A DNA stretch of 53,544 bases from positions 1 through 53,544 of the forward strand of contig CAJXWJ010000018.1 of NCBI GenBank assembly GCA_913062925.1. Direction: 5' to 3'. The translations under genes were made by a program, and so were the position numbers. Each line of letters begins with the position of its first letter. The stretch's first letter is position 1. This document shows, piece after piece, positions 37,511 through 42,106 of this stretch. The notes under the pieces were generated by a model, which had not been told where the DNA came from, did no database searches, and saw only the letters and a list, made by a program, of their open reading frames with translations. The stretch is from an uncultured Pseudorhodobacter sp. (GTDB lineage: Bacteria > Pseudomonadota > Alphaproteobacteria > Rhodobacterales > Rhodobacteraceae).

Positions 37511-38104
37511 TCAGCGGGTGAGCAGAAATGTTTGCATGATCCACAGCAGCCGGTCCGCCGGAACCGCCATGGGGGTGAGTTCAAAAAGCGCCATACGACC
37601 GATGATCTCGACCGGTTTCATCAGGCTTTCAACCCGATGATATTCGCGGCGGTCGACGTAATCGTCCCAAAGCACCAAGGTCGGCTTGCTGATGCGAAAC
37701 AGCGTCGCAAGAAAACAGCCCGCCCGAAAGCGGCCATCAATCAGCACCACATCGGGGTGGTGAAACTCGGGCAGATCCCAGACGCCCAAAGCATAGGCCG
37801 GCCAATCGCGAAACGTCGCCTCGCCTTTTGGAAAGGCCCAAGCTTTGGTTGGCCCGATGTCGGCGTAATGCATGGTCAAATCCGCCAAAGGCGGCGTCTG
37901 GGCAAAGTAGCCCTGCATCATTGCAAGCCAAGCGGCATCGCCCTCGACCGAAGTCACCCGCTTGCCCGCCATCTCAGCCGCAACAACCGTGGACCCGCCG
38001 GAGCCATACTCCAAGATCACATCCGCCCCCGCATAACTCAGCGTCAAGAGCTTGGCCTCTGCCTCTGGCATGGTAAGTTTGGGGCGAAGGATTTCAGGCG
38101 TCAT
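37511..38104 (-). CDS. Putative SAM-dependent methyltransferase-like protein in the suf operon
   Basis: This 197-residue protein shows VILEYGSGGSTVVAAEMAGKRVTSVEGD near 31-58, resembling motifs I and II of class I methyltransferases, and a later PDVVLIDGRFRAGC. The rest is not recognisable, so substrate and even catalysis are uncertain. ATG 38104 was preferred over 38155, because the extra 17 residues fall across a hairpin and are cysteine-rich. It sits 21 nt before sufC. Confidence 0.7.
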   Translation of the reverse strand: MTPEILRPKLTMPEAEAKLLTLSYAGADVILEYGSGGSTVVAAEMAGKRVTSVEGDAAWLAMMQGYFAQTPPLADLTMHYADIGPTKAWAFPKGEATFRDWPAYALGVWDLPEFHHPDVVLIDGRFRAGCFLATLFRISKPTLVLWDDYVDRREYHRVESLMKPVEIIGRMALFELTPMAVPADRLLWIMQTFLLTR

Positions 38105-38134
38105 CCTGCCACCTTTGCAGCAGTCATCTGTGCC

Positions 38135-38154
38135 TGTGCAGAAAAAACTGCACA
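38135..38154 (-). other. Perfect hairpin inside the suf operon
   Basis: The 7-bp arms TGTGCAG and CTGCACA enclose a loop that reads T6 on the transcribed strand, between the FkbM gene stop and the next start. It could be an RNA-processing site or weak attenuator separating sufB-FkbM from the sufC part. Confidence 0.5.
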
Positions 38155-38191
38155 CCGCAAAGCAGAAAAGAGACGCAGCAGATCACGCAAG

Positions 38192-38920
38192 TTACGAGCC
38201 CTCTGGCTGCGGCACCAAGAGAAAATTCTTATTCTCCCGATAGCGTTTATAGGTGTCGCGGATCAGATACCGGCTTTCAGCCGCCCAAGCCTGAAACGCC
38301 TCGATATTCTCGACATCAACCTCGACGAACATAATCGGCCGCTCGCGCGCGATGGTCTCGCGCAGCCCCGCCAACACCCGCATTTCCATGCCTTCGACGT
38401 CAAGCTTAATGAAATCAATCTTCTGGCCCGCCAAAGCCTCGTCGCCGCGGATCACTTCCAGATCTCCGCTGCCCTCGACCATGCGGCCACCGCCCAGATT
38501 GCGGTCGGGCACATCCATGCCCAACCCCTTGGCAGAGCTGTCCGACAGGCCCAAGCCAAGATGCTGATCGTCGCATTGATCCATCACGCCGTTCAGCGTC
38601 AGATTAGAGCGCAACACGGCAATCGCAACTGGATTTGGTTCGAACAGAATAACCTTGGCCACATTCAGAAACTTCAGCGCAAACAACGCGTGATTGCCAA
38701 TATTCGAGCCGATGTCACAAAATACCATGCCAGGACGGCAATTTTTGCGGATGATCTCAAGCTCTTCTTCTTCGTAGAACTCGCCTCGAACATGTTTTTT
38801 CTGGATCACATCCTTGGGATTGGTGATGGTGAAAAAAACCGGCTTGCCCCAAATTTTGGCGCAAACAATTTCCGCCATCGGCGTGCGATAGACTGCTGAT
38901 TTTTTCTGCTCTGACTTCAC
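38192..38920 (-). CDS. FkbM-family methyltransferase in the suf operon
   Basis: This 242-residue methyltransferase has motif [20 protein letters not shown] near 65-83, then VILFEPNP and [16 protein letters not shown], the FkbM-family fingerprint. It resembles the second FkbM gene at 45003. Its ATG overlaps the sufB stop (ATGA), so it is co-translated with sufB. The sequence looks somewhat more AT-rich than its neighbours, possibly from transfer. Family members modify small molecules or sugars; nothing links it directly to iron-sulfur chemistry. Confidence 0.82.
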
Positions 38921-40440
38921 CCCACACTCCCTTCAAGTGAGATAGCCACAAGGCTTTGCGCCTCCATGGCAAATTCCATTGGCAGGGCTTGCAGAACTTC
39001 TTTACAAAAACCGTTCACCACCAACGCAACTGCTTCTTCTTCGTCCATCCCGCGCGAGCGGCAATAGAACAACTGATCGTCATCAACCTTAGAGGTCGTC
39101 GCCTCGTGCTCGACGCGGCTCGAATTGTTTTTCACTTCGATATAGGGCACGGTATGGGCGCCGCATTTATCGCCAATCAGCAGGCTGTCGCATTGGGTGT
39201 AATTGCGGCTGTCGGTGGCCTTTGGATGCATCGACACCAGCCCTCGATAGGTGTTCTGCGCCCGCCCTGCCGAAATGCCCTTGGACACGATGCGGCTTTT
39301 GGTGCGCTTGCCAAGATGGATCATCTTGGTGCCAGTGTCGGCTTGTTGGGCGTTGTTGGCGATGGCGATGGAATAGAACTCGCCTTGGCTGTCATCGCCG
39401 CGCAGAATGCACGACGGGTATTTCCAGGTGATCGCCGAGCCGGTTTCAACTTGGGTCCACATCACTTTGGCGCGGTCACCACGGCAATCGGCGCGCTTGG
39501 TGACAAAGTTATAGATGCCGCCGACGCCGTTTTCATCGCCCGGATACCAGTTTTGCACCGTGGAATATTTCACCTCGGCGTCTTTCAGGATCACAAGTTC
39601 CACCACCGCCGCATGCAGCTGATTGGTGTCACGCTTGGGCGCCGTGCAGCCTTCCAGATAGCTGACATAGGCGCCCTCGTCGGCGATGATCAGCGTGCGT
39701 TCAAACTGGCCGGTGTTTTCGGCATTGATGCGGAAATAGGTCGAAAGCTCCATCGGGCAGCGGGTGCCTTTGGGGATATAGACAAAGGAACCGTCTGAAA
39801 ACACAGCCGAATTCAGCGTGGCAAAAAAGTTATCCGACTGCGGCACAACCGAGCCAAGGTATTGCTTGACCAGTTCAGGATGCTCTTTGATCGCTTCTGA
39901 AATCGAGCAAAAGATCACCCCGGCCTTGGCAAGTTCCGCCTTAAAGGTGGTGCCAAGCGAGACGCTGTCGAACACCGCATCGACGGCAACCTTGCGCTCG
40001 CCCATGGTCTCGGCGCCCTCGACACCTGCCAAGATCATCTGCTCTTGCAGCGGAATCCCCAGCTTGGCGTAGGTGGCCAGCAGTTTCGGGTCAACCTCGT
40101 CCAAGGATTTCGGCTTGGTCGCCATGCTTTTCGGCGTCGCGTAGTAATACTGATCTTGGTAGTCGATGGTGGGATAGTTCAGCATCGCCCAATCGGGTTC
40201 TTCCATCTGCAACCAGCGCGCATAGGCCGCCAAACGCCAATCCAGCATCCATTGTGGCTCGCCGTTCTTTTCCGAGATCAGCCGCACGATGTCTTCGGAC
40301 ACGCCCTTGGGCGCGTAATCCATTTCAATCTCGGTGGACCAGCCATGCTTATAGGTGCCCGACATTGCATTCACGGTTTCAATCGTCTCGCGATCAACCC
40401 CGTCGCGCACTTCCAGTTCAACGTCCGTCATGGCATTCAT
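38917..40440 (-). CDS. sufB: SufB, core scaffold of the SufBCD complex
   Basis: This 507-residue scaffold is where the nascent iron-sulfur cluster forms. Family features are [19 protein letters not shown] near the N-terminus, [20 protein letters not shown], and a C-terminal [26 protein letters not shown] followed by [21 protein letters not shown]. The TQCDS cysteine corresponds to the proposed cluster/persulfide site. It starts 31 nt after the cysteine desulfurase stop and overlaps the FkbM gene by 4 nt. Confidence 0.97.
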
Positions 40441-40471: not shown

Positions 40472-41515
40472 TCACGCGATGCGCGAAAGAATACGTTTGT
40501 AGTCGCGGCTCCAGCTTTGCACAAAGCGCAGCACCGCCTCTTCTGTCACATCTGGCCCCAACGAGATGCGGATCGCCTGTCCGGCAAGCGCCTCGTCAAA
40601 ACCCATCGCGCGCAGCACGCGGCTGGCGCGCACCTTGCCGCTAGAGCAGGCAGAGCCTGCCGAAACCGCAAAGCCCGCAAGGTCCATCGCCATCACCTGC
40701 GTCTCGCCTTTCCAGCCGGGCGCGATCAGGGTCAGGGTGTTGGGCAAACGCGCAACGCTATTCCCGACAGAAATAGTATTAAATCCCTCGGCAGACAATG
40801 CTGAATCTAGAATATTTCTAATTTCGGCAACGCGATCCCAGACGCCATTGGCCAAATCACGCGCCGCAGCCTCGGCTGCTGCGGCAAATCCGGCGATGCC
40901 GATCAGGTTTTCGGTGCCCGCACGCCGCCCCATTTCCTGCCCGCCGCCGCGCAATTGCGCGCTGACATCAAGCCCGCGCCGCAGCACCAGCGCGCCAATC
41001 CCCTTTGGCCCGCCGATTTTATGCGCCGAAACCAAGCCCATCTGACAGCCCAACCAATTAAAGGCGATCGGCAGCTTGCCAAAACCCTGTGTCAGATCCG
41101 ACACCGCAAGCCCCTCTGGCAGGTCCTGCAAGATGCCGGTTTCTGAATTGGCAATTTGCAGCGCAGATTGCGCGGGGTCTGACACCGTCACACGGCCCTG
41201 TGCATCCACGGGCAGGCTTGGCGCGCACCAAGCGGCCACCGCGTCATGTTCGACATCGCCGCAAACCAGCCCTCGCCCGGCACAGGCCAAGGCTGCGGCT
41301 TCGGTGGCGCTCGAGGTAAAGACAATATCCGCGCCATCCGCACCCAAGGCCGAGGCGATCTGGCCGCGCGCGCGCTCCATCATCGCTTTGGCCGCGCGCC
41401 CTTCGCGGTGCACCGACGAAGGGTTGCCTTGCAGATCCATCGCCGCAATCATCGCAGCCCGCGCTTCAGGGCGCAGCGGTGTGGTGGCGTTCCAATCCAG
41501 ATAGCTGCGGCTCAT
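40472..41515 (-). CDS. Group I (IscS/NifS-like) cysteine desulfurase
   Basis: This 347-residue PLP enzyme releases sulfur from cysteine. The PLP lysine is K166 in SAHKIGGPKG and the persulfide cysteine is C290 in SAGSACSSGKV. It is shorter than E. coli IscS (about 404). The operon thus holds two desulfurases, this one and SufS. Codons 231-253 form an AT-rich patch (40757-40825) using AGA, CTA, TCA, GGA and repeated ATT/AAT, unlike the surrounding GC-rich codons, and containing an Irr-box-like palindrome. ATG overlaps the iscR stop by 4 nt. Confidence 0.94.
   Translation of the reverse strand: MSRSYLDWNATTPLRPEARAAMIAAMDLQGNPSSVHREGRAAKAMMERARGQIASALGADGADIVFTSSATEAAALACAGRGLVCGDVEHDAVAAWCAPSLPVDAQGRVTVSDPAQSALQIANSETGILQDLPEGLAVSDLTQGFGKLPIAFNWLGCQMGLVSAHKIGGPKGIGALVLRRGLDVSAQLRGGGQEMGRRAGTENLIGIAGFAAAAEAAARDLANGVWDRVAEIRNILDSALSAEGFNTISVGNSVARLPNTLTLIAPGWKGETQVMAMDLAGFAVSAGSACSSGKVRASRVLRAMGFDEALAGQAIRISLGPDVTEEAVLRFVQSWSRDYKRILSRIA
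40806..40822. promoter_or_regulatory. Irr-box-like palindrome inside the cysteine desulfurase gene
   Basis: TCTAGAA-TAT-TTCTAAT carries the same TAGAA-N3-TTCTA core as the operon-promoter site at 42069. It coincides with the rare-codon island, suggesting the sequence is kept for a reason beyond the protein. Just downstream on the minus strand, TTGTCT-N17-TATTTC could be a weak internal promoter serving sufB onward. Confidence 0.45.
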
Positions 41516-41979
41516 TCATCCACCACCCGAAACAGCGCTGGCACCGCAGGGCATGGCGTCACCACATTTTCGATCACATCCGACAGCCGCATCTGGTGCA
41601 AAAACACATAGACATGCGCCGAAAGCCCTTCCCACAGCCGGTTGGTCAGGCTTTGCGCCCGCGTGCCCGAAACCCCGCCCGAAGCCCCTGCCCCCGAATG
41701 CATCGCATCGACATTTTCTTCGACCGCTTCCATCACCTCGGAAATCCGGATCGCATCGGGGCTTTTGGCCAGACGATAGCCGCCACCCGGCCCGCGCACC
41801 GCCTCGACCAGACCAGCGCGGCGCAATTTGACAAACAACTGTTCCAGATAGGGCAAAGACAGATCCTGACGCTTGGCGATTTCGGCCAAAGACATCAGCT
41901 CGTCGCCGCCCGATCCCTCGGCCAGCGCCAGATCGGCCAGCGCCACCATGGCATAACGCCCCTTTGTCGACAGTTTCAT
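41512..41979 (-). CDS. iscR: IscR-type Rrf2 regulator lacking the usual cluster cysteines
   Basis: This 155-residue Rrf2-family regulator has the winged-helix STKGRYAMVALADLALAEG and LSLPYLEQLFVKLRRAGLVEAVRGPGGGY, and sits first in the isc-suf operon. In E. coli IscR three cysteines and a histidine hold the 2Fe-2S cluster. Here that region reads MHSGAGASGGVSGTRAQSLTN, with no cysteine and Asn for the histidine. The only cysteine is C143 near the C-terminus (TPCPAV). This matches what I recall for Rhodobacter sphaeroides IscR, described as a divergent cluster-binding type. It probably represses its own operon. Confidence 0.92.
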   Translation of the reverse strand: MKLSTKGRYAMVALADLALAEGSGGDELMSLAEIAKRQDLSLPYLEQLFVKLRRAGLVEAVRGPGGGYRLAKSPDAIRISEVMEAVEENVDAMHSGAGASGGVSGTRAQSLTNRLWEGLSAHVYVFLHQMRLSDVIENVVTPCPAVPALFRVVDE

Positions 41980-42068: not shown

Positions 42069-42085
42069 TTTAGAATGGTTCTAGG
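42069..42085. promoter_or_regulatory. Irr-box (ICE)-like palindrome over the iscR -10
   Basis: TTTAGAA-TGG-TTCTAGG matches the iron-control-element pattern TTTAGAA-N3-TTCTAAA at 12 of 14 arm positions. It overlaps the predicted -10 of the isc-suf promoter, so bound Irr would repress. Confidence 0.65.
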
Positions 42086-42106
42086 ATATCCGAGCGAATT
42101 TGTCAA
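42078..42106 (-). promoter_or_regulatory. Predicted isc-suf operon promoter
   Basis: On the minus strand, a consensus TTGACA (42106-42101), a 17-nt spacer and TAGAAC (42083-42078). The -35 lies in the centre of one palindrome and the -10 inside an Irr-like box. A leader of about 90 nt follows before iscR. Confidence 0.6.

Follow-up and report, generated by a model that had tools for sequence, protein, structure and literature searches.

A predicted P3-type internal promoter in iscS and its retention, with an apparent residue cost, in Rhodobacteraceae

Why does an otherwise GC-rich cysteine desulfurase gene switch abruptly to rare, AT-rich codons over a stretch of 23 codons? The question is raised by an iscS-type gene on contig 18 of a 3,147,326-base genome from an uncultured Pseudorhodobacter species. 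The entire stretch of DNA analyzed, 53,544 nucleotides in length, is called the window. Codons 231-253 of the gene read GAA ATT AGA AAT ATT CTA GAT TCA GCA TTG TCT GCC GAG GGA TTT AAT ACT ATT TCT GTC GGG AAT AGC. Six of these 23 codons end in G or C, compared to a mean of 15.8 for the 23-codon windows of this gene, and all windows with eight or fewer G/C-ending codons start at codons 219-235 and therefore overlap the patch. Moreover, AGA and CTA are each estimated to account for less than 1% of the codons for their amino acid, as judged from iscS, sufB, and iscR of the same genome outside the patch. An earlier note on this DNA had described a rare-codon island at this place, and the abrupt fall in third-position GC bears it out.

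That note had also pointed to a TAGAA-N3-TTCTA core common to the patch and the operon promoter, which an exact scan of the genome confirms: The pattern occurs at these two sites only, and a reversed control pattern does not occur at all. The internal site reads TAGAATATTTCTA on the plus strand (with flanks, TCTAGAATATTTCTAAT) and the promoter copy reads TAGAATGGTTCTA. When up to one mismatch is allowed, the window still holds just these two matches, compared to a mean of 0.15 in shuffled sequences, of which 3 in 100 reached two.

Layout of the patch and its operon

The host gene lies on the minus strand between iscR and sufB, with sufC and sufD farther along (Table 1); the three suf genes were named by eye from their open reading frames. 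Divergent from iscR is a gene that is termed a putative hydrolase in the portion of PMC6956336 covered here. The order hydrolase-iscR-iscS-sufB is seen in most of the relatives' loci displayed, a few of which are stretches too short to tell, and a SufB protein was matched on the same side of iscS in these loci. One locus (L195) has no iscR or hydrolase match. Another genome (G136) carries two iscR-iscS-sufB regions, neither of which has the internal Irr core; this may reflect a mixed assembly or a duplication. Between sufB and sufC, the window has two minus-strand genes (37511-38155 and 38192-38920) that look methyltransferase-like by eye, the second of them FkbM-like, and one hypothetical gene has been reported at the corresponding position in R. 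sphaeroides.

The iscS product matches several NCBIfam cysteine desulfurase models, each below its cut-off, and its best named matches belong to Rhodobacteraceae, among them one with 84% in a Cypionkella sp. assembly (the search may omit the organism's own species). The IscR protein scores 134.8 bits with the NCBIfam IscR equivalog model (cut-off 207.55) and has a single Cys, located within PCPAV. This agrees with what the part of PMC4618611 consulted reports for Rhodobacteraceae IscR, which has an unusual cluster ligation.

A promoter inside iscS is known from R. sphaeroides. Nie, Remes and Klug (2019, PMC6956336) mapped the start of this promoter, P3, by dRNA-seq, and the sections of their report covered here describe transcripts that span the suf genes. 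An Irr box, TTAGAAATATTCTAGA, lies about 50 nt upstream of the start and is bound by Irr in EMSA experiments. An IscR motif, GACTATTTCTGTCGG, binds IscR in gel shift assays, and P3 activity is 2.5- to 2.8-fold higher without IscR. Reporter assays in the same study identified P3 as the strongest sense promoter of the operon.

Codons 232-237 of the window's host gene carry the published Irr site, TTAGAAATATTCTAGA (minus strand), followed by ACTATTTCTGTCGG, with TTGTCT and TATTTC 17 bp apart. The IscR-box-like sequence ACTATTTCTGTCGGGAA matches 14 of the 15 bases of the published motif. Working by hand, we place the predicted start near position 40763, with the Irr centre about 51 bp upstream. 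The TTG near the -35 position (near -34 in R. sphaeroides) and the IscR motif at the predicted start are in the order and at the distance seen in R. sphaeroides P3. The core promoter is overlapped by an IscR motif, and iscR itself is a gene of the same operon. As judged from this layout, the internal iscS site is the orthologue of R. sphaeroides P3, with the difference that P3 was established by dRNA-seq, reporter, and EMSA experiments in one species, whereas the window promoter is predicted from sequence. The earlier proposal of an internal Irr-controlled promoter for sufB onward was largely right in light of this precedent. However, such a promoter had already been published, and the effect of IscR on it is clearer than that of Irr in the results covered (PMC6956336).

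The order of the Irr and IscR sites at P2 is the reverse of that at P3. According to the part of the same paper drawn on, the IscR box of R. sphaeroides P2 spans -36 to -19, and its Irr box extends from -13 to +1. In positions 42071-42106 of the window, the Irr core opens with TAGAAC, a hexamer that could double as a P2 -10 region, 17 bp from a perfect TTGACA.

Table 1. Positions of genes and predicted control sites in the window
Feature	Coordinates	Strand	Basis and remarks
iscS-type cysteine desulfurase, host of the predicted internal promoter	40472..41515	-	Open reading frame; NCBIfam matches; solved desulfurases match
iscR	41512..41979	-	Passes the Rrf2 superfamily cut-off; falls short of that of the IscR model
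sufB	38917..40440	-	Open reading frame, by eye; first gene entirely downstream of the predicted internal promoter
Internal Irr-box core TAGAA-ATA-TTCTA	40808..40820	-	Codons 232-236; centre about -51 from predicted P3 start
Predicted P3 -35 region TTGTCT	40793..40798	-	Sequence; TTG at 40798-40796
Predicted P3 -10 region TATTTC	40770..40775	-	Placed by hand; 17 bp after -35; in second conserved island
IscR-box-like ACTATTTCTGTCGGGAA	40761..40777	-	Covers -10 and predicted start
Operon-promoter Irr-box core (P2 equivalent)	42071..42083	-	Sequence; zero or one mismatch in 116 of the 128 loci where the operon-promoter region could be cut out
Predicted P2 -35 TTGACA	42101..42106	-	Placed by hand; 17 bp from TAGAAC

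Conservation in the family and codon cost

Given that R. sphaeroides was already known to have this promoter with its sites for Irr and IscR, what is new here is the strength of their retention across the family. Conservation of the P3 site, its codon cost, and an association with Asp or Asn are absent from the results and discussion covered of PMC6956336, and no prior report of them was found in the isc-suf literature outside PMC7728643, PMC4176601, PMC11475020, and subscription papers.

Matches were obtained in 194 of 198 family genomes, and 130 iscS loci from 129 genomes, the window's own included and each with another genus code, were analyzed. This set comes mostly from the top of the match list and thus under-samples distant family members. 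The internal Irr core has no mismatch in 91 of these loci and one mismatch in 5 (96/130 total), and the island containing the -10 and IscR-box region is within three mismatches of ACTATTTNTGTCGGNAA in 101/130. Elsewhere in these genes, no Irr match with fewer than two mismatches occurs in any of the 130, and a control palindrome of like composition has at least three mismatches at the internal site. Similar values were obtained for 80 named loci (Irr core with no mismatch in 63 and one in 13; IscR island within three mismatches in 72), a set that partly overlaps the 130 loci and so is no independent sample. A less selected count comes from an order sample of 149 genomes, all of the family and the window's own included, in which 101 carry the 60-bp layout and none carries a reversed control. 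Some genera in this sample, such as g56, are of mixed state. Therefore, the palindrome is not one that close relatives lack, which would have spoken against the earlier interpretation; rather, most sampled family genomes keep the site.

Outside the family, the site was not found in the genomes sampled. A class sample of 385 genomes yielded the 60-bp layout in two of its five family members, one of them the window's own genome, and in none of the 380 non-family genomes, with no match to the reversed control. Likewise, 67 iscS genes from outside the family were compared (27 + 40 loci; the best-scoring of the 164 matching non-family genomes supplied them), and at the internal site each of these genes differs from the core by at least three mismatches. 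One of them has a one-mismatch copy elsewhere in the gene.

Several features of the alignment need to be weighed with care. The 3-bp centre of the palindrome is rather constant, being ATA in 66 of the 91 exact cores. The fixation of bases among box carriers follows in part from how carriers are defined. The 43-bp spacing was dropped as evidence because it is not independent, codons 232-252 being free of indels in 128 of 130 rows. Among the 96 box carriers, 75 have a TTG at an offset of 22 or 23 from the Irr core, which places it in two different reading frames. However, TTG is also common in loci without the right half-site (22/35, versus 75/95 with it), and therefore it supports a promoter, not Irr.

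The cost to the gene can be read from its codons. When 336 of the 347 columns were analyzed with each genome's own codon usage as the reference, the three most unexpected codons were CTA236, AGA233, and ACT247 (excess surprisal 2.42, 2.27, and 1.90), compared to a mean of 0.006 (s.d. 0.135) outside codons 228-256. Across the family, the patch resolves into two conserved islands, codons 231-237 with the Irr core and codons 246-252 with the -10 and IscR-box region, and the codons between them are not conserved. An alignment of synonymous identity across the family, which the earlier note had proposed as a check, agrees in that the best seven-codon windows begin at codons 246 and 231. High synonymous identity by itself is not limited to the patch, since columns 298, 294, and 289 outside it also rank high, but these use common codons.

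Half-sites, residue 234, and the Irr gene

The association of AGA and Asn with the full box is partly circular, as the bases concerned belong to the left half-site, and therefore these analyses were redone against the right half-site alone. Arg233 is invariant (130/130), and the AGA codon is used for it in 94/95 loci when the right half-site is present and in 5/35 when it is absent. Residue 234 differs between the same groups. Asn is present in 83/95 loci with the right half-site versus 6/35 without it, and Asp in 2/95 versus 28/35. When loci are sorted by the full box, with one locus that has two mismatches (L193) counted in neither group, carriers have Asn234 in 84/96 and Asp234 in 2/96, and loci without the box have Asp234 in 28/33. 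Asp234 is also found in 58 of the 67 non-family iscS genes, all from Alphaproteobacteria. The left half-site requires codon 234 to begin with A, which would disfavor Asp at this position in carriers. In a scan of all 347 columns against the right half-site, uncorrected for relatedness, the strongest associations were column 235, which lies inside the right half-site (p ~1e-23), and column 234 (~1e-19), followed by columns 238 (1e-7) and 246 (1e-5); distant columns reached 1e-3 at best.

The two halves of the dyad have no base in common, yet both are intact in 91 loci, both are broken in 33, and only 6 loci are mixed. Their joint change was examined on a single FastTree tree of the neighboring genes (IscR, hydrolase, and SufB, with iscS left out). 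Among supported, non-overlapping pairs that differ in the right half-site, the left half-site differs the same way in 12.0 of 14 and the opposite way in 0.0 (median p 0.0005). For residue 234, absence of Asp goes along with the right half-site in 10.5 of these 14 pairs and against it in 0.1. The IscR island is uncoupled from the Irr box there (3.2 versus 0.5 of 14), and it changes 18 times compared to a shuffled mean of 25.7.

The history of these changes is less clear. The right half-site changes 29 times on the neighbor-gene tree, about as often as when the labels are shuffled (mean 31, minimum 27), and 26 times on an IscS tree built without codons 222-265, also a single FastTree tree (shuffled minimum 27). 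This second tree offers only 4 pairs on supported branches (2.9 same, 0.0 opposite), too few to repeat the joint-change result, and for this reason an exchange of gene pieces between lineages is a possible cause of the joint change. Exchange of whole genes seems less likely in view of the residue scan, in which columns 235 and 234 are strongest and far columns are weak.

The window's genome has an irr gene (L214:517-945), whose product scores 196 bits with the NCBIfam IrrA model (cut-off 150) and 191.7 bits with the Irr model (cut-off 170). An Irr match with E < 1e-50 was found in 60 of 62 family genomes, comprising 33 without the box and 29 others. The exceptions are G023, whose iscS lacks both islands, and G166, a 71%-complete assembly in which the box is present without a strong Irr match. 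The 33 genomes behind the 34 core-less loci (at least two mismatches) include 32 that keep a strong Irr, and therefore the presence of Irr does not make the internal site necessary. Loss of irr was rejected on the same count as a general cause of box loss, with only one genus (g24) fitting such a cause.

All six sampled genomes of this genus (G023, G592, G612, G618, G648, and G666) have only weak Fur-type matches, with E values of 1e-9 or weaker. Exact matches to TTAGAANNNTTCTA (TTAGAA-N3-TTCTA) are absent from all six, which represent one lineage. However, a reversed control matches in five of the six, and therefore one match per genome is near chance and the zero count is suggestive only. 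The six belong to 40 genomes hand-picked from the 149-genome sample (32 without and 8 with the 60-bp layout); the other 34 all have Irr, and 33 of them have at least one TTAGAANNNTTCTA match. The remaining genome (G101) has a strong Irr match yet no exact TTAGAANNNTTCTA. It is possible that genus g24 is a natural Irr knockout. Our guess is that it corresponds to Paracoccus, based on a remark in the portion of PMC6956336 covered that iscR is located elsewhere in Paracoccus.

Explanations for the site and its possible role

We consider a P3-type internal promoter in iscS, composed of an Irr dyad, a TTG -35, a weak -10, and an IscR box, to be the best explanation for the patch, with the DNA sites presumably fixing the rare codons. 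We give this reading a probability of roughly 0.85.

A roadblock is the alternative that survives best, though as an account of the patch it is doubtful. Irr bound inside iscS in low iron would stop RNA polymerase arriving from P2 and so uncouple suf from iscR-iscS, an action that could be combined with control of P3. The site does lie within a transcribed gene, and the influence of Irr in R. sphaeroides is larger in a construct with all promoters. However, the authors, in the part of PMC6956336 covered, name extra plasmid copies of iscR, and hence extra IscR, as another possible cause, and the conserved TTG and -10 adjoining the site point to initiation. A broader proposal is that an Irr dyad in an enzyme gene overrode a protein residue across the family, in that A at codon 234 bars the usual Asp, which is present in dyad-less lineages together with common codons for Arg and Leu, and that Irr at this single site may both regulate the internal promoter and roadblock P2 transcripts. 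We regard this combined proposal as an even bet.

Other alternatives were rejected or are held to be unlikely. Irr might bridge its P2 and P3 boxes to form a repression loop, as the two lie about 1.3 kb apart in the window and both are present in 83 of 128 loci. However, the distance between them varies from 1240 to 1451 bp without helical phasing (resultant 0.08-0.11 for three periods, n=83), the P2 box occurs alone in 33/128 loci and the P3 box alone in 12/128, and in R. sphaeroides P3 was bound by Irr, whereas the P2 region, with its predicted Irr box, was not (PMC6956336, as covered). These findings make looping very unlikely. Equally improbable is a hairpin or a slow-codon stretch acting in RNA or translation. 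The rare codons are indeed clustered, and a small hairpin (-4.3 kcal/mol) is possible in 26 nt of the window's sense RNA, but the most unexpected codons are those required by the two DNA motifs, Irr and IscR bind P3 DNA in R. sphaeroides according to the same portion of that report, and the sampled g24 genomes, in which no strong Irr match was found, have no exact box.

The earlier suggestion of an antisense promoter found no support and is less probable still. A palindrome can be read on either strand, but the order of -35, -10, and IscR box fits the sense strand, and the antisense starts that dRNA-seq revealed in R. sphaeroides (P4 and P5) lie only in and upstream of iscR in the results covered (PMC6956336). 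Finally, a recombined AT-rich segment would explain the abrupt local fall in third-position GC and the little or weak tree signal of the box state, but it is the least credible alternative given that the islands occupy identical codons in 96/130 loci and are separated and flanked by unconserved codons.

Returning to the P3-type promoter, we infer how it functions in the window's organism, where exactly it starts, and in which direction Irr acts on it, as follows. RNA polymerase would initiate near position 40763 by using the TTG and the weak -10 (TATTTC) 17 bp farther on. IscR would repress by covering the core promoter, with its box over the -10 and the start. Irr, active in low iron, would bind just upstream, with its dyad centered about 51 bp from the start, and would restrain the rise of P3 under iron shortage. 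In this way P3 might provide a steady supply of suf products while the iron-responsive P2 tunes iscR and iscS. With the DNA sites under selection, AGA233, CTA236, and ACT247 would be fixed and the usual Asp at position 234 would be disfavored.

Published findings from R. sphaeroides bear on this model. P3 shows no iron response in the wild type and a 2-fold response in an irr mutant, the sole Irr effect visible; it responds to iron only without Irr or without IscR, and the iron response of P2 is about 5-fold (PMC6956336, sections covered). When iscR is disrupted, iscS expression is lost but sufC, sufD, and RSP_0439 are still strongly expressed, as stated in the part of PMC4618611 consulted. 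By analogy, the simplest reading would be that Irr and IscR both keep P3 output flat while P2 responds to iron.

Related sites are known. The Irr box, or iron control element (ICE), of R. sphaeroides mbfA and ccpA is likewise a conserved site bound by the Fur-family protein Irr, and the start of ccpA lies about 40 nt downstream of its box. However, these elements are upstream of genes, whereas the window's box is in a coding region (PMC3413700, in the portion covered). Intragenic sigma54 promoters of E. coli are also conserved inside genes, some giving mRNAs with long 5' leaders, but they use a different sigma factor class, whereas the window has an Irr dyad and an IscR box with a codon and residue cost (PMC4591121, parts covered). 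Many mapped intragenic factor sites are regarded as poorly conserved and without detectable effect; most intragenic PhoB sites, for example, are unconserved and have no detectable effect, according to the excerpt of PMC10294691 consulted. In contrast to sites of this type, the one described here is conserved over much of a family with a measurable codon cost, and, as the residue pattern suggests, an amino acid swap is the apparent price paid by the enzyme, yet the site is missing in many lineages. Lineages with the box and without Asp, without the box and with Asp, and without a strong Irr form a natural series for testing the value of the site against its price in protein. Moreover, separate control of suf from P3 is likely to be common in Rhodobacteraceae, beyond R. 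sphaeroides.
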